From: Methanobacteriota archaeon
Lineage (GTDB): Archaea; Halobacteriota; Methanomicrobia; Methanomicrobiales; Methanoculleaceae
Length of the DNA stretch: 64,000 nucleotides
Direction: 5' to 3'
NCBI GenBank assembly: GCA_016841955.1
Contig: JAENYE010000001.1
Span: 756,025 to 820,024, forward strand
Shown: positions 1-10,075 of the stretch, in pieces
Position numbering within the stretch: the first letter of the stretch is position 1
Layout of the letters: each line of letters begins with the position of its first letter
Position numbers and translations under genes: made by a program
Notes under the pieces: model-generated
What the model saw: only the letters and a program-made list of their open reading frames with translations
Told to the model about the DNA's origin: nothing
Databases searched by the model: none

Positions 1-1
1 A

Positions 2-1606
2 CGCAAGCGAGCCGAAGAGGCGTTGCGGAAGGCCTATGCCGAGCTCGACGACCGGGTCAGGGAACGGACGGCCGAGCTGGAGCATGCAAATACCCGGCTC
101 CAGATCGAGATCGAAGAGCGCAAGCATGTGGAGGAGGGCCTGCAGGAGAGTAAGGAGAAACTTCGACCTCTCTTTGATTCGCTGCCGATCGGGATTTCTG
201 TCCTGGATACCGATCGGAAGATACGGGAAGTGAACCCTGCGCTGGGAAATATCCTTGATATCTCGCAGGAAGACCTCATGCATGGCGCATATACCGGCAG
301 GCGCTATCTCCGATCGGACGGGACAGAGATGCCCATGGCGGGGTATCCCAGCGTTCGGGCATTCGAAGAGCAAAAGGCAGTACATAACGTTGAGATCGGA
401 GTGGTGAAAGAGGACGGCACTACCATCTGGACGAACGTGAGCGCTGTCCCGCTCCCGTTTTCAGACTGGCGCGTACTGGTGACCACGTCAGATATCACCG
501 AGCGGAAGCGGGTCGAAGAGGCGCTTCGAAGTACCAGCGATTACCTCGAGAGCCTGATCAACTATGCGAACGCCCCCATCATTGTCTGGGATTCGGACCA
601 TACGATCACGAGGTTCAACAACGCTTTTGAGCGCCTGACAGAGTATTCTGCCGGAGAGGTGGTCGGCCGGAAGCTGGACATCTTGTTCTCGGAGGATACC
701 CGGGACGAGTCGCTGGCCAAGATACAGCGCAGTCAGACGGAACATTGGGAGTCCATCGAGATACCCATTCTCCGAAAGGATGGCGACATGCGCATCGCGC
801 TCTGGAACTCGGCGAACATATACGACGAAAAGGGCGATCTGCTGGCGACCATTGCGCAGGGCCAGGACATCACCAAGCGCAAGCAGGCCGAGAAAGCACT
901 CCAGCGCCGCACCGACGACCTTATCGGGCTCAACCAGGAGGTCGAAGCGGCACGCGAGGAGGCGAACATGTACCTCGACATCATGACCCACGACGTCCGG
1001 AATGCGAACAACGTCTCGAGCATGTACGCGGACCTCATGACCGAGCTGGCAGAAGGAACCCTGAAGACCTATGTAGAGAAGCTGCACGACAGCGTCGAGC
1101 GAAGCAGCGAGATCTTGCAGAACGTCGCCACAATCCGCCGGGCCCAGCATGCACCCGGCCGCCTGTTACCGGTGAACCTCGATGCGGCCATCAGGGAGGA
1201 GATCGACGCGTTTCCAGGAGCCACAATCCGATACCGGGTTCCTCCGGTCGAGGTGCTGGCTGACGGTCTCCTCCCGACCGTCTTTAACAACCTCATCAGC
1301 AATGCTGTCAAGTTCGGCGGTCCCGATGTCGAGATCTCCATCCATGTCGAGGAGCAGGACGGCGAGATGTTGGTCTCTGTGGAGGACACCGGCCCGGGTG
1401 TGCCAGAAGAGATGAAGGAGATCCTCTTCCACCGGTTCGAACGGGGCATGGCCAAGGGGAGGGGCGAGGGGCTCGGGCTCTTCATCGTCCGGACGCTTGT
1501 TACGCGCTACGGCGGTACTATCTGGATCGAGGACCGGATGCCGGGCCATCCGGAGGAAGGGGCAACCTTCAGGTTCACGCTTCGAAAAGCCGGGGAAAAC
1601 AGCTGA
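2..1606 (+). CDS. PAS-domain sensor histidine kinase, 5' end outside the window
   Basis: The reading frame is open from the left edge and already inside a coiled-coil linker, so the true start and any N-terminal sensor lie upstream. Counting from the TTG codon at 23, two PAS domains follow (about residues 45-160 and 170-290). Next come a dimerisation helix with the phospho-acceptor box THDVRN (His near residue 323) and an HATPase domain with N-box NLISNAVKF, G1 box DTGPG and G2 box GEGLGLFIV. No membrane segment or receiver domain is visible in this part. It is a cytosolic or membrane-linked signalling kinase of the type common in methanogens. The signal is unknown and no response regulator is adjacent. 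It is not clear whether it belongs to the island that follows. Confidence 0.9.
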   Translation, partial: RKRAEEALRKAYAELDDRVRERTAELEHANTRLQIEIEERKHVEEGLQESKEKLRPLFDSLPIGISVLDTDRKIREVNPALGNILDISQEDLMHGAYTGRRYLRSDGTEMPMAGYPSVRAFEEQKAVHNVEIGVVKEDGTTIWTNVSAVPLPFSDWRVLVTTSDITERKRVEEALRSTSDYLESLINYANAPIIVWDSDHTITRFNNAFERLTEYSAGEVVGRKLDILFSEDTRDESLAKIQRSQTEHWESIEIPILRKDGDMRIALWNSANIYDEKGDLLATIAQGQDITKRKQAEKALQRRTDDLIGLNQEVEAAREEANMYLDIMTHDVRNANNVSSMYADLMTELAEGTLKTYVEKLHDSVERSSEILQNVATIRRAQHAPGRLLPVNLDAAIREEIDAFPGATIRYRVPPVEVLADGLLPTVFNNLISNAVKFGGPDVEISIHVEEQDGEMLVSVEDTGPGVPEEMKEILFHRFERGMAKGRGEGLGLFIVRTLVTRYGGTIWIEDRMPGHPEEGATFRFTLRKAGENS

Positions 1607-1615
1607 GAGATTTGA

Positions 1616-2011
1616 GGCAAAGGTGATCTCACAGCCGCCATAGAGAGGCCATTTTTCGAGATACCTAATAATGTGCTCAAGAAAGCCAATCTTCTGAAAT
1701 ATGAGATTTCAGGAGATATCGCCGATATCAATACAGAATCCCTAACGAAGCACACCAAGCAATCCTTTGTGATGTTCTTTCCCGCTTCCTTTGTAAATGA
1801 GCTCCGGAATTTCAATCTCTCCACGCCGGGAGATTCGACCTACCTAAAATGAAGCCTCAAACACGGCAATGTATCTTCCAAGACTATCCGAAAGTGGCAC
1901 GTTAACCTGAGGAAGGAAGCCCGGATAGATTCCGCTGTAGCGAATTTCCTGCATGGCAGCCTTAGCGCGATACACCAAATGAGAGAACGGAAAAAGATAA
2001 CCGTACGTTAG
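1616..2011 (+). pseudogene. Tyrosine recombinase (integrase) C-terminal remnant
   Basis: One frame is open from 1616 to TAG at 2009-2011 apart from a single in-frame TGA at 1850-1852. There is no plausible start codon with a ribosome site, so the N-terminal part is missing. The segment SFVMFFPASFVNELR and, after the TGA, SKTIRKWHVN and DSAVANFLHG resemble the C-terminal catalytic part of archaeal XerC/D-like integrases. The final nucleophilic tyrosine segment is not recognisable. The family assignment comes from motif resemblance only. Its position beside repeated tRNA fragments supports a dead integrase. Confidence 0.55.
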
Positions 2012-2020
2012 TGGAAAATT

Positions 2021-2458
2021 TCATTTAATTGATTGCAGAATTGCTTGGTCTAATTCTTTAGGTTGATCGGTTCCGATCCGGTATCTTTTACCGCTCTTCA
2101 TGATTATTTCAACCGCGTCAAAACCGGAGACGTTGTAAATCCACATACGGGGCCAGAACCATATTCTTACTCCCCATCCGTAATACCACCGATTCTTTAC
2201 CGTTTTCGCGGACGCGACGTCATCGAGAAGAAACTGTTTCCGAAAAATTCCTAAATAACCAAACTTGATGCGCAAATACTGTTCATCGACCGTTACGTGA
2301 AGTGATCCAAAAGAAGCAAGGATGAACAGAATGTAAATCATAAAAAAAATGACTAGAGGATTGAATCCGATTTGAGTCACAATAATTCCGAAAAGTATGG
2401 AAATCGCAACTAATGCAATTATTATAACATAACCATTCTGGGTATGCTGGTAGACCAT
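2021..2458 (-). CDS. Small membrane protein with PH-like (bPH2/YdbT-type) domain
   Basis: The 145-residue product starts with two adjacent hydrophobic helices (about residues 10-28 and 33-50). A beta-rich segment of about 85 residues follows, with RIKFGYLGIFRK and a C-terminal VEIIMKSGKRYRIGTDQP. Two membrane helices followed by a PH-like domain ending in a GT.QP.eL motif is the layout of small bacterial PH-domain membrane proteins. Function is unknown. The gene is AT-rich, lies in the island, and points back toward the integrase remnant. A TATA-like box sits just upstream, so the transcript may be leaderless. Confidence 0.6.
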   Translation of the reverse strand: MVYQHTQNGYVIIIALVAISILFGIIVTQIGFNPLVIFFMIYILFILASFGSLHVTVDEQYLRIKFGYLGIFRKQFLLDDVASAKTVKNRWYYGWGVRIWFWPRMWIYNVSGFDAVEIIMKSGKRYRIGTDQPKELDQAILQSIK

Positions 2459-2480
2459 TGACAGTAATAGAATCGCAGTA

Positions 2481-2490
2481 CTTTATATTT
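2481..2490 (-). promoter_or_regulatory. TATA box for the PH-like membrane protein
   Basis: Read on the minus strand the sequence is AAATATAAAG, 23-32 nt before the ATG at 2458. That is the expected archaeal spacing for a leaderless or very short 5' UTR. Confidence 0.45.
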
Positions 2491-2660
2491 AATCTGTTTA
2501 AGGAGCAGTTACCCGGAGGATACCGTACCCACGGTTATGCCATTCTCAAAACCCTTGTTGCTATCTCTTTTTATTAAGTGACGGCGGAAACTCATCGTGT
2601 GGTGTGAATACAATCCGCCAAGTGTGGCCACAGTAGAAATGCATGAGGAGAAGAGAGAAC

Positions 2661-2774
2661 ATGAAAAAAGAAAAGCAATTTAAGCGAATCAGGCATCCGA
2701 TTCATCTTACGTTGTCCGAAGACGCCATAAAAATTCTGAAAAACACGGGCAATACGGCCTCCCGCGTGATATAA
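2661..2774 (+). pseudogene. Small att-proximal ORF, copy 1, interrupted
   Basis: An ATG with a purine-rich upstream stretch opens a 37-codon frame containing RHPIHLTLSEDAIKILKNTG and ending at TAA in 2772-2774. Past the stop the same frame continues as RLILDALTESRPI, hits TGA, and then runs in frame into the tRNA-Val copy at 2837 (WARRDS). A second copy at 3825 lacks both of these stops but carries a different one, so the parent gene was probably one longer small protein. HLTLSEDAIKIL looks like a strand followed by a helix, as in small DNA-binding proteins. That comparison is only suggestive. Confidence 0.5.
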
Positions 2775-2836
2775 AGACTCATTTTAGACGCCTTAACAGA
2801 ATCCAGGCCCATTTGAATCTTAATTGGCGAAAATGG

Positions 2837-2887
2837 ATGGGCTCGTCGAGATTCGACCTCGAGACCCCCGCCGTGTGGAGGCGACGT
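2837..2887 (+). repeat. tRNA-Val 3'-half copy 1 (putative att site)
   Basis: These 51 nt match the 3' half of the tRNA-Val gene (10001-10051, plus-strand reading) with three mismatches, in the same orientation. The match covers the acceptor strand, T arm and variable region, part of the anticodon arm, and then stops. This is the footprint left when an element recombines into the 3' end of a tRNA gene. The mismatches suggest an older event than the identical copy at 4001. Confidence 0.75.
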
Positions 2888-2988
2888 AAAGGCCTCCGTT
2901 TTCCATAACAGAGCCCAATATGAGCGTAATTCAGGTGTGCAGGTCTTGCTGCATCGATATTGAGAAGTTAGTCAAAGGAGCTAGGGTT

Positions 2989-3354
2989 TCACGACCGTAT
3001 CCATTCCCAAGCTTCGGCTAGCCGCTCCTTTTTGAAAAACCGGAGTTCGGTCCGGGTCAGGGTGGTGAATGTCTTGAATAGCAGGGTCATCCATTCATCC
3101 CAACTCTCGCCGATGACCGTCGCCATCTTTTCGACTGCCGAGAACTTTAGACCGAGAAGAAAGTCCTCCCAAGCCCCACCGACCGTCCAACCCTCGAACC
3201 CCTCCATGACCCATACCACCCTGATCTTCGGGTATTCCTTCATGGCTCTTTCCATCTCTGGAATAAGAAGGTCTTGGTAATCGGCTTCACTCAGCTTCCC
3301 ACTGAGCCGGAACCCAAGAATGTTTCCGGAACTTTCTGGTAGTTTCTCTATCAT
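2989..3354 (-). CDS. SpoIIAA-like (STAS-fold) protein
   Basis: The 121-residue protein has the SpoIIAA-like family pattern: an N-terminal GFRLSGKLSEADY strand-turn-helix, then IRVVWVMEGFEGW, a WEDFLLGLKF helix, and a C-terminal segment with FFKKERLAEAWEWI. Members are soluble single-domain proteins of the STAS/CRAL-TRIO-like fold. Their biochemical role is unknown, although the fold binds lipids or acts in anti-sigma partner switching elsewhere. It is the only gene between the two tRNA copies at 2837 and 4001, so it is probably cargo of one integration. Confidence 0.7.
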   Translation of the reverse strand: MIEKLPESSGNILGFRLSGKLSEADYQDLLIPEMERAMKEYPKIRVVWVMEGFEGWTVGGAWEDFLLGLKFSAVEKMATVIGESWDEWMTLLFKTFTTLTRTELRFFKKERLAEAWEWIRS

Positions 3355-3359
3355 TGCCT

Positions 3360-3713
3360 CATCCCGGGACAGGAGTCAGGAGCAGAACTATTTAATATTT
3401 CCTGGTGCCCGCCCGGCCCGGGTGGTTCTGGCGTTCTTCCGAATCTCTGCGAATTCCTGAGAGGGAGATACCCCACATCCGTACAGCTCTCCGGGAGACG
3501 ATCATTTGATTCAGTCCATCAGGAATGGTTCGATGCACGAGAGTGGAATCGGTTGCGGGCGGGAAGGCACAAATGGAGATAATTATCCGGGGCAACTGGA
3601 GATTGGCAGAAAATAAGGCATATAGGTAGAGACGTTTACTATCTCTGTTTCGACACGCTGAAAATCGTATTATTTTCCGTCAAGAGAAGATATCGAAACG
3701 CGATAACGCGCAT
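3360..3713. other. Non-coding or unrecognised stretch
   Basis: No supported gene is seen. A 67-codon minus-strand frame at 3392-3595 has no convincing ribosome site and no recognisable motif, and is probably spurious. Confidence 0.4.
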
Positions 3714-3824
3714 ACCCTTGTTGCTACCTCTTTTAATACCGCCTCATTCCATCGATTCCAAGTAGTATGCCTACACTCTGCCATCTGTAGCCACAGGCTA
3801 AAAGGAATGAGGGAATGCGTTAGA

Positions 3825-4049
3825 ATAGAAAAAGAACCCAAATAAAACCGAATCAGTCAGCCAATCCACTTAACACTCTCAAAAGATACCATATCTTTAC
3901 TGAAAAATACGGGCAATACAGCCTCCAGAGTTATATGCCGCCCCATATTAGACGCATTATCTGAATCGAAACCCCTAAGCGTCTTATTTGGCGAATCTGA
4001 ATGGGCTCGTCGAGATTCGAACTCGAGACCTCCGCCGTGTGAAGGCTAA
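3825..4049 (+). pseudogene. Small att-proximal ORF, copy 2, running into the tRNA copy
   Basis: This is the second copy of the ORF at 2661. The start is degraded to ATA and there is a TAA seven codons in. After that the frame is open for 67 codons: QPIHLTLSKDTISLLKNTG, then NTASRVI, ILDALSESKP, and finally WARRDSNSRPPPCEG encoded by the tRNA-Val copy, with TAA at 4047-4049 directly after the repeat. NTGNTASRVI is identical in both copies. The preserved frame across the junction suggests the parent gene overlapped the attachment site and borrowed its C-terminus from the tRNA. Confidence 0.55.
4001..4046 (+). repeat. tRNA-Val 3'-half copy 2 (putative att site)
   Basis: These 46 nt are identical to 10001-10046, including the T arm and acceptor strand of tRNA-Val on the minus strand. 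The offset is exactly 6,000 bp. Similarity stops abruptly on both sides. The direct repeat defines the ends of a 6-kb segment that most likely entered by site-specific recombination at the tRNA. Confidence 0.8.
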
Positions 4050-4266
4050 TTCTACTCCCGTTTCTGATTACGGGCCCATATATCCCATATCTGCCCGGCG
4101 CTTCCGATGGAAAAGTCCGTGTTACCTGGGCCTGTAGAGCCGTACCATCCGTATCCTCCGCAACGAAGGGCTGTCGCGATGCCGCTGTGCCGTCTTTCCC
4201 AACATACGGGGCAAAACGGTTAAGGGATCATCACGGAAAGGAACATACACTACGGGGCGACTCGGT

Positions 4267-5517
4267 ATGCAGGAAGAGGTTCAGAAGACGGCGAGGCATG
4301 ATCGGACGCCGGACTCCGTCATCCTGCGTGTCGCCTTTCTCTCCCTTGCCGTCAACGCCGGGCTGGTCGTCGCAAAACTGGGACTCTCGGTCTATTCCGG
4401 CAGTCTGGCCCTCCGTGCGGACGGCATCCACTCGTTCGTGGATGTAATCGCCTCGATTGCGCTGATCGTTGGGGTGCTTCTCTCCTCACGCAAGCGCCGG
4501 GATTTCCCGTACGGGCTCTACAAGGTGGAGAATGTCGTCTCGGTAGCCATTGCCCTCCTCATCTTCTTCACTGCCTTCGAGATTGCGGCGGAGGCGGTGA
4601 TGGGCGATGCCGTTGCACTGCCCTACAGCGGGTGGATCCTCCTCGCCGTCGCCGCCTTCATACCTGTGCCGTACATTCTCGGCACATACGAGGTGAACGT
4701 AGGGCAGAGGTACAACTCTCCCAGCCTGATCGCGGACGGGAGGCAGCACCGGGTGGATGTCCTCTCCTCCTCGATTGTGTTCTTTGCGCTCCTCGGGCAG
4801 TTCTTCGGCATACCCCTGGACCGGATCGCAGCCGTCATTGTCGCCTTCTTCATCGTCCGATCGGGCTGGGGGATCTTGAAAGACAGCATGCGGACCCTCC
4901 TGGATGCCTCGGTCGATTACGATACGCTCAACGAGATCCGCACCATCATCCAGTCGGACCCGATGGTGAGCAGCATCAAGAGGATCACAGGCCGCAACTC
5001 AGGGCGCTACATCTTCGTGGAGGCAACGGTTGAGATGGCGGAGTCGGATTTTGAGAAGGCGCACCTGGCGAGCGAGCGCATCGAGCAGAATATACGGGAT
5101 CAGGTGCAGAATGTCGAACGGGTCCTCATCCACTATGAACCCGAGAAGAAGACGCGCCTGCGGTATGCGGTGCCGTTGAAGGACCGGGAGGGTTTAATCA
5201 GCGATCACTTCGGTGAAGCGCCGTATTTCGCGATCCTTGACTTTGATATCGAGAACAACCGCTTCGAACGGCAGGATATCATCCCCAACCCTTTTGTGGA
5301 TGTGGAGAAGCGGAAGGGCGGACAGGTGGCGGAGATGCTGCTGGCACAGGAGCCCGATGTGGTCTTCGTGCACCATTCGCTCTCGGGAAGAGCGGCCGGC
5401 TACGCGCTTGAGGCAGCGGGGGTCGAGATGAGGATGACCTCTGCGGCAACGCTTGCGGAAGTGATCGACCATGTGGTCGGGCGCCATGGCAAGGAGACCG
5501 ACGCCTCGCCCCGCTGA
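4267..5517 (+). CDS. CDF cation efflux transporter fused to a NifX/NafY-like domain
   Basis: The first 200 residues or so are a cation diffusion facilitator core with about six membrane helices. The TM2 site is ADGIHSFVD (His55, Asp59). The TM5 site is ADGRQHRVD, where Gln160 replaces the usual His four residues before Asp164. A cytoplasmic CDF dimer domain follows (about 205-290). A dinitrogenase Fe-Mo cofactor-binding domain closes the protein (about 300-405, SDHFGEAPYFAI to VVFVHHSLSGRA). CDF proteins export Zn, Fe, Mn or Co by proton antiport. The extra domain may sense metal or a metal cofactor. The fusion architecture is known in methanogens, while substrate and sensing role are inferred. 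The ATG at 4267 gives a normal CDF N-terminus. Confidence 0.88.
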   Translation: MQEEVQKTARHDRTPDSVILRVAFLSLAVNAGLVVAKLGLSVYSGSLALRADGIHSFVDVIASIALIVGVLLSSRKRRDFPYGLYKVENVVSVAIALLIFFTAFEIAAEAVMGDAVALPYSGWILLAVAAFIPVPYILGTYEVNVGQRYNSPSLIADGRQHRVDVLSSSIVFFALLGQFFGIPLDRIAAVIVAFFIVRSGWGILKDSMRTLLDASVDYDTLNEIRTIIQSDPMVSSIKRITGRNSGRYIFVEATVEMAESDFEKAHLASERIEQNIRDQVQNVERVLIHYEPEKKTRLRYAVPLKDREGLISDHFGEAPYFAILDFDIENNRFERQDIIPNPFVDVEKRKGGQVAEMLLAQEPDVVFVHHSLSGRAAGYALEAAGVEMRMTSAATLAEVIDHVVGRHGKETDASPR

Positions 5518-5658
5518 TCTCTTCGTTTATTCCAGACCGGATGAGATCCCTCGAACCGGCCGGAAACATCGGACTATGAGGGAGGATTAAGATTACCTGG
5601 CCTTTTCTTCGATATTGGTGTTAAAATGGCTTCATGACCCTTGTTGCATCCTGATATT

Positions 5659-5692
5659 TTGATCCGCTTGCGTCTCAGGGCGTTCCGGCGCG
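5659..5692 (+). repeat. 34-bp direct repeat, copy 1
   Basis: The 34 nt beginning TTGATCCGCTTGCGTC recur identically at 6681-6714. Similarity extends weakly upstream (GTTGCA in both). This copy forms the start of a small coding relic. Confidence 0.7.
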
Positions 5693-5745
5693 GCATCCCT
5701 CATCGGCAGGTCGTGGAAGAGGCCGTGGCCGGAGTGCCGGCCTGA
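5665..5745 (+). pseudogene. Relic related to the small protein at 8992
   Basis: The frame reads LRLRAFRRGIPHRQVVEE and ends AVAGVPA with TGA at 5743-5745. It aligns with DGIPRRQIVEETSALYGIP in the intact small protein at 8992-9174. There is no start codon, so it is a C-terminal fragment, probably left by recombination at the 34-bp repeat. Confidence 0.4.
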
Positions 5746-6064
5746 AAATAATACTTTTATTGCTCTTAGCGTGCAGGTTGCAGGGGAGGCACCGGTTCGG
5801 AGAAATTGGGCAATTTGATTGACTTCGCGACAAGAAGTAGATAATTACCCCTTCTATGGCAATAGTTACGCTGAAGAAAAGAAATTACTAGATCTACAAT
5901 GAAAATAGGCAATCTGACCCTGAAGAAGGATGCAGAAGGAAATGGACCGTTCACCATGAACGGACATTACGGGGAGAGATTTAAGAAATGGAATTTATAA
6001 CTCATTTTTGGTCTGCGATGGCGTAAAAATAAGATAAGGATGTATGGGCTCGTTCTTAACATCT
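5746..6064. other. AT-rich stretch without a supported gene
   Basis: The only candidate is a 33-codon plus-strand frame at 5899-6000 (MKIGNLTLKK to FKKWNL). It has no clear ribosome site and cannot be verified from sequence alone. Nothing else is recognised. Confidence 0.3.
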
Positions 6065-6358
6065 TCACTTGAGAAGCGTGTCAGCTGCTGCTGTGAGGGG
6101 AATAACCGGAGAAACTCGTCCAGTATGGTGCGTGAGCAGTTTACCCGATAAGAATGCGGAAATATTTTTGAAATCATCAGATTCGAGAACAAAGTAGAAT
6201 GTATGTTCATTTGGACAAGAATATGCTCCTTGAACCTTTACGCCGAGTTTCTTTGCCAGATCATCCATACCATCGACCAATTGCATTGTATCAGTTTTAA
6301 ATTCCTCCCTCGCAAGACAGAGTTCGGGTGGATGAACAAGGGTTACCACGAACATCAT
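6065..6358 (-). CDS. Small protein, possibly a DUF3303-like ferredoxin-fold protein
   Basis: The product is 97 residues if translation starts at the ATG at 6358, which has GGTGAG a few bases upstream. A GTG three codons earlier overlaps that site and is less likely. The pattern MFVVTLVHPPELC, a helix with LVDGMDDLAKKLGVKV, then GAYSCPNEHTFYFVLESDDF suggests a beta-alpha-beta ferredoxin-like fold. That is seen in small dimeric alpha/beta-barrel proteins such as DUF3303. No catalytic residues are evident. It is an orphan gene in the island. Confidence 0.5.
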   Translation of the reverse strand: MMFVVTLVHPPELCLAREEFKTDTMQLVDGMDDLAKKLGVKVQGAYSCPNEHTFYFVLESDDFKNISAFLSGKLLTHHTGRVSPVIPLTAAADTLLK

Positions 6359-6367
6359 GGTTCTCAC

Positions 6368-6680
6368 CGTCAGACCAGAAAACGCATTTAAGATATAAAA
6401 CTATCGTGAACGAAAGAATGCCCCCCACCGGGCGAAGTACGAGGTGAACAGACAGAGGTATTCCCGCAAACACGGTTTTTCATTTAACAGAAGAAGATCG
6501 ACTATGCTACATGGTATCAATCACTCCCCAAAATACTGAGAAAAACAACGGATCGTGAAATGACTTATTTTGCCTAATTAGGAGCAAGCTCTTTTTGAAG
6601 AATTGCCGGTTAGTAACTGTGACGGTACGTGCCTTAGACCTTTATTTTTGAATGAAGGATTACTGTTGCAACTTGGTAAT
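6368..6680. other. AT-rich intergenic stretch
   Basis: No gene, RNA or terminator is recognised. The right end runs into the second copy of the 34-bp repeat. Confidence 0.4.
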
Positions 6681-6714
6681 TTGATCCGCTTGCGTCTCAG
6701 GGCGTTCCGGCGCG
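6681..6714 (+). repeat. 34-bp direct repeat, copy 2
   Basis: It is identical to 5659-5692. Here it overlaps the 3' end of a minus-strand membrane-protein gene and supplies its last codons (RRAGTP and stop), so that gene's C-terminus was probably replaced by recombination at the repeat. Confidence 0.7.
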
Positions 6715-6927
6715 CCTCACACTTATGACAGCGATAATAATCCCGATAATGAAAGCAATCGCTCCGGCAACTGCCCAGAATGGGGATGGGCCGACAATCT
6801 CTTCGCAATTTGCGATGCACAATATTGGACGCATCCGAAGAATTCCCGTGCCTTGCAGAAACCATAACAGGCCAAGAAAGGCTATAAAAGCGCCGATAAG
6901 TGCTCCAGCTATTTGTCTTCCCCTCAT
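6697..6927 (-). CDS. Small two-helix membrane protein
   Basis: The frame has two hydrophobic helices, IAGALIGAFIAFLGLLWFL and AVAGAIAFIIGIIIAVISV, joined by a short loop holding two cysteines (CIANCEE). The ATG at 6927 (MRGRQIAG) puts the positive cluster just before helix 1, as in many small archaeal membrane proteins. A GTG at 7005 would add 26 charged residues and cannot be excluded. The last six residues come from the 34-bp repeat. Function is unknown. Confidence 0.5.
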   Translation of the reverse strand: MRGRQIAGALIGAFIAFLGLLWFLQGTGILRMRPILCIANCEEIVGPSPFWAVAGAIAFIIGIIIAVISVRRAGTP

Positions 6928-7078
6928 ACCCGATCGAACGTCATCTTCGATACCGGTTAAAATAATTTCTCTGCTTCGCAGGGTCGTGATGCCACCTGAC
7001 ACCACATTTTGGTTTTAAGTGCTCCGATCAGGATGTACCGAGAGTTCAGAGATCTTTTCGGGACGACCTCCATCACTA

Positions 7079-7927
7079 TCAGTTCAGCAGGTAGTGGACG
7101 GTCCACTGAGTTTTCCTGATAAATTTAATGTGTTTCAGGACTTTGAGTAAGCCCAGTTTCTCTTCTTCAGAATCAAAATAACTCCATTCGTCGAGAAACT
7201 GTATCCCACTATGCCATTGTTCCATCTCCCGGCTGTCGCGGATACCGGATCGGAACGTGGCATCCTTTCCCATGTGCATCTCCCTTTGCAGCTTGAACTC
7301 CAGGATCTTTTTTAACGGGAATTTGAGCCATATTGAATTAACCACTTCACAGACCAGTTTGGAGCCCCTGAATTTTTCCTGAATTTTCAGCACCAGCGAT
7401 CGGACGTCCTTCCCATCCAGATACATAAATACGCCTTCTGCCATGAACAGGAACGGCCCTTTGTGCTGCAAGACAGTCGCCATCCAATTAAAATCCAGTA
7501 CTGACGAGGCGATCAGATGATACCTTTCCGTCTCGTTAAAAAAGGTTTTTTTGATCGCTATTATTTCTGGCAGGTCGAGATCATAAAATACCACATGTCC
7601 ATTATCGATCCGAAGGAACCGGGAATCGAGCCCGCAACCGATATTGACAATAACACCATCCGGAAACCTGTGCAAGAAATCCTGTGCATAGTCGTCATAT
7701 TTTTTTGCACGGAGTGCAATATGGACAACGAGGCGCTTATCCAACGTGCCGGAGACGAGGATCCTATCCAGCGGATCGTCCGAGAGGGAGAGCGTTTTAT
7801 TCAGTTCAGTAGTGATCTCAACCGATTTTGGATCAACGAGGATAGGATTGTCGGAAAGGGTCTCAAGGGCATGACAATAGAGTGTGATAAACGATGTACC
7901 TGCAATATCACCAATTCCTGTCAGCAT
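7079..7927 (-). CDS. Leucine carboxyl methyltransferase (LCM/Tcmp)-family methyltransferase
   Basis: The 282-residue protein has the family's SAM-binding core: VNIGCGLDSRF (motif I, about residue 94), FYDLDLPEII at the end of strand 2, and the acidic motif FLFMAEGVFMYLDG. The N-terminal part with SDNPILVDPKS is also typical. Members are soluble O-methyltransferases acting on small metabolites or carboxylates. The archaeal substrate is unknown. A strong ribosome site (GGAGGGG) lies five bases before the ATG at 7927. The gene is AT-rich relative to the core genome and sits alone in the island, which suggests acquisition. Confidence 0.8.
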   Translation of the reverse strand: MLTGIGDIAGTSFITLYCHALETLSDNPILVDPKSVEITTELNKTLSLSDDPLDRILVSGTLDKRLVVHIALRAKKYDDYAQDFLHRFPDGVIVNIGCGLDSRFLRIDNGHVVFYDLDLPEIIAIKKTFFNETERYHLIASSVLDFNWMATVLQHKGPFLFMAEGVFMYLDGKDVRSLVLKIQEKFRGSKLVCEVVNSIWLKFPLKKILEFKLQREMHMGKDATFRSGIRDSREMEQWHSGIQFLDEWSYFDSEEEKLGLLKVLKHIKFIRKTQWTVHYLLN

Positions 7928-8206
7928 TTTTCCCCTCCAGAGTGATCCCCGGATTAAACAGGTAATTGGGATTGATTGCTTAAGTTCTTTTTTAAGTGAA
8001 GAGTGATTTTGATCCTTAAATCAAAGCAGGATTTTTGGAATTTAAAATAGTAAAAAATTGCCGCTCCATATCACCGCTTTCACCCTCACCCGTTCCGAGC
8101 TATGAGCGTGACCGGGGCAAAACCGAGCGGTTGCACTTTTTTACCAGACAACCTTCATCTCCCCCGAAATCCCACAAAGGTATCAACAGAGGGTTCCGGG
8201 AGCATT
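7928..8206. other. Divergent promoter region, AT-rich
   Basis: This gap separates the divergent LCM-type methyltransferase and shikimate kinase genes. It contains A/T-rich boxes such as AATTTAAAATAG near 8039. A longer kinase reading frame begins at 8102 but lacks homology before 8207. Confidence 0.35.
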
Positions 8207-8707
8207 ATGCAGCACTGCAAAAACGTCATCCTCATCGGCATGCCCGGTGCAGGGAAGAGCACCGTGGGCGTCATCCTTGCAAAATCCCTCGGCATGCAGT
8301 TCATCGATACGGATATCCTGATACAGGAACAGACCGGGAGGATGCTCCAGGAGATCCTTGACGAGGACGGGTCCGATGCGTTCAAGCGGATCGAGGAAGA
8401 GACGATCCTCTCCCTCCATCCCCGCCGTGCAGTGATCGCGACGGGCGGCAGCGTGGTGTGCAGCGGGGATGCGATGGCACACCTGAAGTCGGGAGGGATG
8501 GTCGTATACCTGAAGGTCTCGTATGAGGAGATGGAAAAGAGGCTCAAGAACATCACGACAAGGGGGATAGTCCTCCTTCCGGGCCAGAGTCTCCGCGAGA
8601 TGTACGACGAGCGCGTCCCGCTCTACGAGAAGTATGCCGATCTCACCGTCGCGTGTTCGGATGAGGATTTTGAATCTGTGGTCCGGAACGTGATCGGAGC
8701 GTTGTGA
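8207..8707 (+). CDS. Shikimate kinase, bacterial AroK-like P-loop type
   Basis: The ATG at 8207 follows GGGAG at good spacing and begins the conserved part (MQHCKNVILIG). The 166-residue product has the Walker A loop GMPGAGKST, shikimate-binding FIDTD, ATGGSVV, and a lid with ITTRGIV. It converts shikimate to shikimate 3-phosphate in the chorismate pathway. Most archaea use an unrelated GHMP-family shikimate kinase, so this bacterial-type enzyme in an integrated segment is notable. The lid lacks the usual RPLL motif, so a related small-molecule kinase role is possible. Confidence 0.8.
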   Translation: MQHCKNVILIGMPGAGKSTVGVILAKSLGMQFIDTDILIQEQTGRMLQEILDEDGSDAFKRIEEETILSLHPRRAVIATGGSVVCSGDAMAHLKSGGMVVYLKVSYEEMEKRLKNITTRGIVLLPGQSLREMYDERVPLYEKYADLTVACSDEDFESVVRNVIGAL

Positions 8708-8991
8708 AGAGTCTGGATGGTGTCTTGTGATCCACGTAAAAAAAGCCGATGCACCTGTCTTGAGTCCGGTGCGTCAGTCCCTTCCCGGACAGGATACGGG
8801 AGATGCCGGGATCGATCTCTGCAACTGCCCACCTGTTGATAATCTCTCGATCCGAATGGCGTGTCATTCTATCGTTCATGGTACGTGGTACAAGGTCTTC
8901 ATGTGCAGCGTGAAAGGGGTTTTGAAATGTTCATAGAAAATCCCTGATTTGCTCTCCCTGTCAATCAGAAGTGTATCGGTTAAGGAAGGGC
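8708..8991. other. Intergenic stretch, nothing recognised
   Basis: No supported gene or RNA is seen. Short frames here overlap on several strands and lack ribosome sites. Confidence 0.4.
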
Positions 8992-9174
8992 ATGATACCG
9001 TTCCTGTCCGGGCATCGAGATCGCTCGCATGTCGCCCATGATCTTAAGCGCACCGTTGCCGCCATGCTCCGCGACGGTATCCCCCGCCGGCAGATCGTCG
9101 AGGAGACCTCAGCCCTCTATGGCATCCCTCAGGAATGCATAGAGGAAGTCGTTTTAGCCTGTCCCCCTCAATAG
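8992..9174 (+). CDS. Small unknown protein, 60 aa
   Basis: The ATG at 8992 follows AAGGAAGG, a good ribosome site, which favours it over the GTG at 8971. The product has a helical middle (LKRTVAAMLRDGIPRRQIVE) and ends ECIEEVVLACPPQ. DGIPRRQIVEETSALYGIP resembles a helix-turn-helix-like pattern in which a regulator recognises repeated inputs, but no family is identified. A truncated relative lies at 5665-5745. Confidence 0.5.
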   Translation: MIPFLSGHRDRSHVAHDLKRTVAAMLRDGIPRRQIVEETSALYGIPQECIEEVVLACPPQ

Positions 9175-9290
9175 GTGCGTAGTCTCGGGAGAGGGAAAGA
9201 GTTACTCCCCGGACAAAAAAGAGGACTTCTGGCAATCCCCCTCGCCTTTCCGATTGTCTTTTCCGTTCTGGGTACAAGGCTTTCTTACCG

Positions 9291-9449
9291 ATGCTCAAGC
9301 GGATCGCTTTTACACTCATAGGAGCACTTTTCGGAGTTGCCTCACTTATTGGCATCCTGGATTCCGGTGAAGCTACCACATTTATATTCAGCGGACTGTT
9401 AGGAGCACTTGTGGGAGGATACATTGGCTATAACATCGCGAATAGGTAA
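9291..9449 (+). CDS. Small glycine-rich membrane protein, 52 aa
   Basis: ATG at 9291 and TAA at 9447-9449 frame a 52-residue protein. It has two hydrophobic helices, AFTLIGALFGVASLIGIL and FSGLLGALVGGYIGYNI, the second with a glycine-zipper spacing. No clear ribosome site is visible. Function is unknown. Confidence 0.45.
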   Translation: MLKRIAFTLIGALFGVASLIGILDSGEATTFIFSGLLGALVGGYIGYNIANR

Positions 9450-9489
9450 ATAGGGTACGTAAAGGTAGAGAGAAGGTGGCTGAAGGGAG

Positions 9490-9660
9490 ATGACCGAACA
9501 CGATGATACACATCACTGAGCTTGGAACGACGAGATGGATGAGCTCGGTCTGTCAGCGGACTCGGAAGTCGTGGAGTTTCTTATAAATCAATATGACAAA
9601 ACCCTCAAGGGCTATGGGAATGCTGTAAAAGAGATAGTTGAGACTGTGAAAAGAGTGTAG
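9490..9660 (+). pseudogene. Small ORF split by an in-frame TGA
   Basis: An ATG at 9490 preceded by AAGGG opens MTEHDDTHH and meets TGA at 9517-9519. The same frame continues through AWNDEMDELGL to TAG at 9658-9660. An internal ATG at 9535 would give a 41-residue helical protein (LSADSEVVEFLINQYDKTL). It looks like an antitoxin-sized helical protein, but no family is recognised. Either the gene is broken or translation starts at 9535. Confidence 0.35.
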
Positions 9661-9683
9661 TTCGGTTTTTCTTTTCCGCGAAG

Positions 9684-9929
9684 TTATTCCCTCTGTCTCA
9701 GTTTGTAGTAGATATCGACCAGAGCAAGGAACACTCCTACTCCGAGCAAACTGTATCCGATGAGGCGATCCTCACCGAAAATAATTCCTGCAATGATAAA
9801 GGCAAATGCAAGAGCTGCAAGTTTCGATAACCCTTCTTTTGATTTCTTGCGACTCGCGAAATACAGAACAATAGCAACTATGGCCAAAATAATGATAGAA
9901 ATGAGGATGTAGACCTGGGATGCATCCAT
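9684..9929 (-). CDS. Small three-helix membrane protein, 81 aa
   Basis: Three hydrophobic segments are clear: VYILISIIILAIVAIVLYF, LAALAFAFIIAGIIF and GYSLLGVGVFLALVDIYY. They are separated by a basic loop (SRKKSKEGLSK) and end in a charged tail. Function is unknown. It is the cargo gene nearest to the tRNA-Val end of the 6-kb segment. Confidence 0.6.
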   Translation of the reverse strand: MDASQVYILISIIILAIVAIVLYFASRKKSKEGLSKLAALAFAFIIAGIIFGEDRLIGYSLLGVGVFLALVDIYYKLRQRE

Positions 9930-10001
9930 AGATACTAATACCTTCGGGAATATTTATACCCGTAGTTACGTGCTAATTTCTCAAAAAGAAGCGGTTAATG
10001 A

Positions 10002-10075
10002 TGGGCTCGTCGAGATTCGAACTCGAGACCTCCGCCGTGTGAAGGCGACGTCATAACCAGCTAGACCACGAGCCC
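10002..10075 (-). tRNA. tRNA-Val (anticodon CAC)
   Basis: The minus strand folds as a cloverleaf: acceptor GGGCTCG paired with CGAGCCC, D arm GTCTAGCTGGTTATGAC, anticodon loop TTCACAC (anticodon CAC, reads GUG), and T arm TCGAG-TTCGAAT-CTCGA. The discriminator is A and CCA is not encoded. Its 3' half is duplicated at 2837 and 4001, marking it as an integration target. Confidence 0.95.

Follow-up and report, generated by a model that had tools for sequence, protein, structure and literature searches.

Probable debris of SSV-type integrase elements, set apart from its tRNA-Val target by resident genes in a Methanoculleaceae genome

Near the left end of the window analysed here (the whole stretch of 64,000 nt from a Methanoculleaceae archaeon), positions 1.67-4.05 kb very probably represent debris of at least two related SSV-type integrase elements, while 4047-10001, lying between this debris and an intact tRNA-Val(CAC), is resident DNA. 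The array is ordinary in kind and only mildly unusual in its placement relative to its target tRNA. The features concerned are the following.

10002 to 10075, minus strand: intact tRNA-Val(CAC), target (attB) of the element family (ARAGORN; Rfam tRNA, 62.9 bits)
4001 to 4046, minus strand: att B, 46 nt, identical to the tRNA-Val 3' half
2837 to 2887, minus strand: att A, 51 nt, three mismatches to the tRNA-Val 3' half
3849 to 4046, plus strand: intN_B, 5' remnant of a decayed suicidal integrase gene, 66 open codons with the tRNA 3' half in frame at the end
2661 to 2887, plus strand: intN_A, 5' remnant of another decayed integrase gene, two in-frame stops, tRNA 3' half in frame
1673 to 1957, plus strand: intC remnant, part of the catalytic domain (residues 297-392 of the UBA430 integrase)
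2021 to 2458, minus strand: 145-aa ORF between intC and intN_A, no Pfam match
2989 to 3354, minus strand: SpoIIAA-like (STAS) ORF between att A and intN_B (PF11964, E=5.5e-24)
4267 to 5517, plus strand: cation-efflux gene, resident (PF01545), 86-88% identical and syntenic in relatives G020, G028, G029 and G033
6697 to 7005, minus strand: small membrane protein gene, resident, syntenic in most relatives
8201 to 8707, plus strand: bacterial-type shikimate kinase gene, resident, neighbour of tRNA-Val (PF01202)

A preliminary description had reported three aligned 3' halves of tRNA-Val(CAC) in the same orientation, and we could reproduce its coordinates, identity and mismatches throughout. Positions 4001-4046 match 10001-10046 at 46 of 46 nt with an offset of exactly 6000, and 2837-2887 matches 10001-10051, likewise in the same orientation, with three mismatches (94%). 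When a 37-nt probe from the fragment was allowed up to three mismatches, three matches were obtained in the window against 0 expected (100 shuffles). In the whole 2.43-Mb genome the only other strong matches were two tRNA-Val-like loci (C8, 92%; C2, 83%), and none lay away from tRNA-Val-like sequence. Running from the anticodon loop to the tRNA 3' end, the fragments of 46 and 51 nt fall within the size of about 40-50 bp described for attachment sites of suicidal integrases, and att B ends on the same base as the att fragments of G033, G017 and G028. The earlier reading of the repeats as integration sites holds, as they are att sites of tRNA-Val-targeting elements of a family that is found at tRNA-Val across the genus.

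Both fragments are contained in a longer direct repeat (2637-2882 and 3801-4046; 73% over 246 nt), whose translation revealed it to be coding; the homology between A and B reaches about 200 nt beyond the tRNA sequence, on the tRNA 3' side. Past the att, A and B have about 27 nt in common, too weak a match to build on (shuffle p of 0.08 or 0.013, depending on the scoring). We rejected A and B as complete decayed tRNAs, with B (4002-4077) at 27.9 bits below the 29-bit Rfam threshold and A giving no match. An assembly artefact at the 46-nt repeat was dismissed by reasoning, since the alternative join there would leave a chromosome lacking the 6-kb block and the block itself as a circle, and no other linear order.

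Both copies translate to the N-terminal end of an archaeal suicidal integrase (SSV-type, PF16795), with the att in frame as ESEWARRDSNSRPPPCEG. The near copy (B) reads '...RISQPIHLTLSKDTISLLKNTGNTASRVICRPILDALSESKPLSVLFGESEWARRDSNSRPPPCEG' followed by a stop, and the far copy (A) reads '...RIRHPIHLTLSEDAIKILKNTGNTASRVI', stop, 'RLILDALTESRPI', stop, 'ILIGENGWARRDSTSRPPPCGGDV'. In both copies the encoded protein segment thus ends, in frame, with the tRNA 3' half, an arrangement also present in relatives. As a query for the window we used the intact 425-aa integrase of Methanoculleus sp. UBA430 (G010; NZ_DAXW01000008.1), whose PF16795 domain scores 77 bits, and this search returned both intN pieces together with 1673-1957 as a third match. 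The piece intN_B aligns with residues 52-123 (44% identity, E about 4e-12), has one stop at the att boundary and another upstream, and shows homology to copy A starting near 3801; intN_A aligns with residues 52-124 (47% identity, E about 7e-15). The intC remnant reaches 58% identity (E about 6e-28) with one stop, and the match of the 1673-1957 region to PF16795 (Phage_integr_3 catalytic domain) exceeds the curated cut-off. Judged by their sequence, then, the fragments are in-frame parts of integrase genes and not simply displaced chromosomal pieces of the tRNA.

All integrase copies at this locus are dead fragments. A complete integrase with a C-terminal catalytic tyrosine is absent, the intC remnant stopping at residue 392 with a stop inside. 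Behind att A and att B we found no further pieces of integrase, nor was there an intN beside the tRNA here or another copy of the family elsewhere in this genome, which holds fragments only, and the statement that the locus carries no live integrase was therefore right. Phage, plasmid and viral-contig collections yielded no relatives of the intN protein. The UBA430 integrase (L158 8001-9275) belongs to the same subfamily, with 44-58% identity to all three fragments, but its suicidal-type gene has not been cut. The att region in this gene has drifted until it is unlike tRNA-Val, and no second copy of that region occurs in the UBA430 genome; possibly the integrase changed its target or the gene lies on an episome.

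PF16795 is a marker of the suicidal integrases of SSV, pTN3 and pT26-2, in which the att of 40-50 bp is part of the integrase gene itself and integration thereby splits that gene into an intN and an intC portion (Badel et al. 2021, PMC8371274). Like SSV1, pTN3 and pT26-2 (type I, SSV-type), the copies described here have an att within the 5' portion of int, where the tRNA 3' half is read in frame, and they share the att length, the PF16795 catalytic domain and, probably, the cut into intN and intC. Unlike in these elements, all copies here are dead, and the array is found at a distance from the tRNA, with resident genes in between. The order intC ... intN-att on one strand fits a gene split by integration, with the att expected to the left of intC missing; no left-hand att survives beside intC to define the left end of the element.

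The preliminary description had taken 4047-10001 for the last inserted segment, and here relatives with a single tRNA copy, including G009, G020 and G029, contradict it as a recent element. Such relatives carry the genes of this block beside tRNA-Val in the same order and orientation, and the block is therefore resident chromosome rather than a further insertion. Blocks within 4149-9471 match relatives beside tRNA-Val over the cation-efflux gene, the small membrane protein gene, the shikimate kinase gene and small ORFs, with order and orientation kept. The segment from the tRNA to the first att, which in a serial island would be absent from relatives with one tRNA copy, is thus largely conserved and syntenic in them. 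The shikimate kinase adjoins tRNA-Val across the genus and also in G039 and G054 of another family; the gap between the two measures about 90 nt in G009 and 0.3-0.4 kb in G039 and G054, and in G020, where a short intN-bearing stretch precedes the resident genes, the distance is about 2.5 kb.

Some smaller differences were seen within the block. A 51-nt direct repeat (92%; 5642-5692 and 6664-6714) bounds about 1.0 kb that is absent between the cation-efflux and small membrane protein genes of G020, G028 and G029, and this part of 5642-6714 looks like a separate small insertion or its scar. A leucine-carboxymethyltransferase-like gene (PF04072, 7003-8091) has been inserted between genes that are direct neighbours in G020 and G029. 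Between the genus and G039 (family f4), the shikimate kinase shows about 80% identity and the neighbouring HtpX 69%, and lateral transfer of the kinase at the tRNA-Val site is possible.

How did the array come to lie behind resident genes? The integrase gene of these elements would carry the tRNA-Val 3' half as its attP, and recombination of the element with tRNA-Val would rebuild the tRNA and cut int at the att, so that intN stays next to the tRNA while intC ends up at the opposite end of the element. An element, or a tandem pair, may then have been excised and have re-entered the chromosome at a secondary site that separated the cation-efflux gene from the gene then next to it. This would reproduce exactly the order resident genes, att B, intN_B, att A, intN_A and intC, the far-left att having since been lost. 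Re-integration at a secondary site fits the order best and we give it about an even chance. For SSV1, use of a slightly different site has been reported when its own site is absent (PMC8371274). In the corresponding interval of relatives lacking the array, the search for a secondary attB gave no significant match, the best, of 11 nt, lying about 100 nt away from the junction in G028 (shuffle p=0.11). Since resident genes lie between, we infer that the array was not placed by being pushed away from the tRNA. These genes stand between the tRNA and the att array here, whereas relatives show the reverse, with the elements between the tRNA and the resident genes. In G029, 131 nt of A-type intN (85%) are fused to the same cation-efflux flank, and in G005 a 41-nt A-type intN piece lies in the same interval. 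In a one-locus tree of the genus, G005 is the sister of this genome and G029 is farther off. By these short remnants and this tree, the array may have been inserted long ago and then lost from other genomes.

The original proposal had tRNA-Val hit twice in succession, with 4047-10001 as the later insertion. The direct repeats are correctly oriented for it, the near copy is identical and the far one diverged, but most of the block is resident, syntenic DNA in relatives that have only one tRNA copy, no intN lies against the tRNA in this genome, and we consider this reading very improbable. What survives of it is the relative age of the sites: with no changes in 46 nt against three in 51, att B would fit a younger origin than att A, as proposed, yet the order of events is not tied to insertions into the intact tRNA. 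Scarcely more probable is a true serial accretion on an order-level time scale, in which the resident block was brought by a very old tRNA-Val element after A and B. The identity of about 80% of the kinase between the genus and G039, with HtpX at only 69%, would suit a kinase that may have moved laterally. The kinase, however, stands beside tRNA-Val in two families and its divergence within the genus equals that between families, which dates it before the genus, whereas att A and att B are preserved at 94-100%.

The main alternative to re-integration at a secondary site is a usual integration at tRNA-Val, followed by a rearrangement such as integrase-mediated excision and re-insertion of the resident block, which put the block between tRNA and array. 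Identical att copies of 46 nt flank the block and could recombine, and all att copies point in the same direction, but an att on the far side of the block would be required before the move; moreover, G029 has the same remnants with the block in place, making the move old, yet att B is still identical. Because no convincing secondary attB was found and that step is one we infer, re-integration is rated no higher than above, with rearrangement as an unlikely but real possibility. That the present order is the product of a cassette move, the att copies bracketing the 6-kb resident block with its shikimate kinase and cation-efflux genes, we regard as improbable; if true, the integrase of a superinfecting element could excise and move resident genes as a cassette. 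The locus shows that a stray piece of tRNA close to the intact gene is not necessarily an island boundary: it may be the coding attP of a dead integrase gene, with resident genes between it and the tRNA.

Across the genus, intN was found within 300 nt of tRNA-Val in 14 of the 28 relatives. As translation of the tRNA alone already gives WARRDSNSRPPPCEG, this count uses just the intN portion upstream of the tRNA-derived stretch. The tRNA-Val(CAC) of Methanoculleus is a repeatedly used target of suicidal integrases, traceable in about half of the genus members examined; in the open-access papers searched we found no description of this hotspot. The full serial arrangement is visible in G033, where the tRNA with intN is followed by an intC piece, an att, an older intN and then the resident genes, with intC and intN at opposite ends of the element; in G025, G017 and G028, att fragments separate the tRNA from the resident genes. 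Serial integration at tRNA-Val is in this respect borne out by the genus, tandem or serial copies being visible in G033, G025 and G028, but not for the supposed newest segment 4047-10001 of this genome. Tandem integration of archaeal elements at one locus has been reported (PMC8371274), and the likeness lies in several att copies of the same orientation near one tRNA; the difference is that resident genes lie between the tRNA and the att copies here. In Methanoculleus sp. FWC-SCC1 (NZ_VCYH01000005.1), a tRNA-Val att is fused in frame to a complete intC 4 kb from the shikimate kinase, an element end resembling the locus here, but there both att and intC are undamaged, and the element points away from the kinase. 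In G031 (L086 15443-15513), a second tRNA-Val(CAC) call together with a tRNA-Gly start lies 15 kb from the first and is followed by intN, and its sequence leaves the tRNA exactly at the att boundary via a short substitution.

Outward from the tRNA, the order is resident genes, att B with intN_B, the SpoIIAA-like ORF, att A with intN_A, the 145-aa ORF and intC, beyond which come a histidine kinase gene and others as far as imm163, a conserved ORF of 163 aa (L080 11790-12281). The 145-aa ORF has a 31% homolog 0.3 kb from tRNA-Val in G058, a member of another family, and is likely element cargo. The SpoIIAA-like ORF, with no homolog in any relative locus compared, is likely cargo or a passenger. 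An FMN-reductase-like gene, assigned by reading the sequence, is present between imm163 and the cation-efflux gene or the kinase in G005, G010, G020, G028, G029 and G033; it is absent from the interval between imm163 and the resident genes here, with integrase debris in its place (window 1-4100, L080). In G005 (L083), the interval that holds the array here contains an ORF for a RecT-like recombination protein, again by sequence reading.
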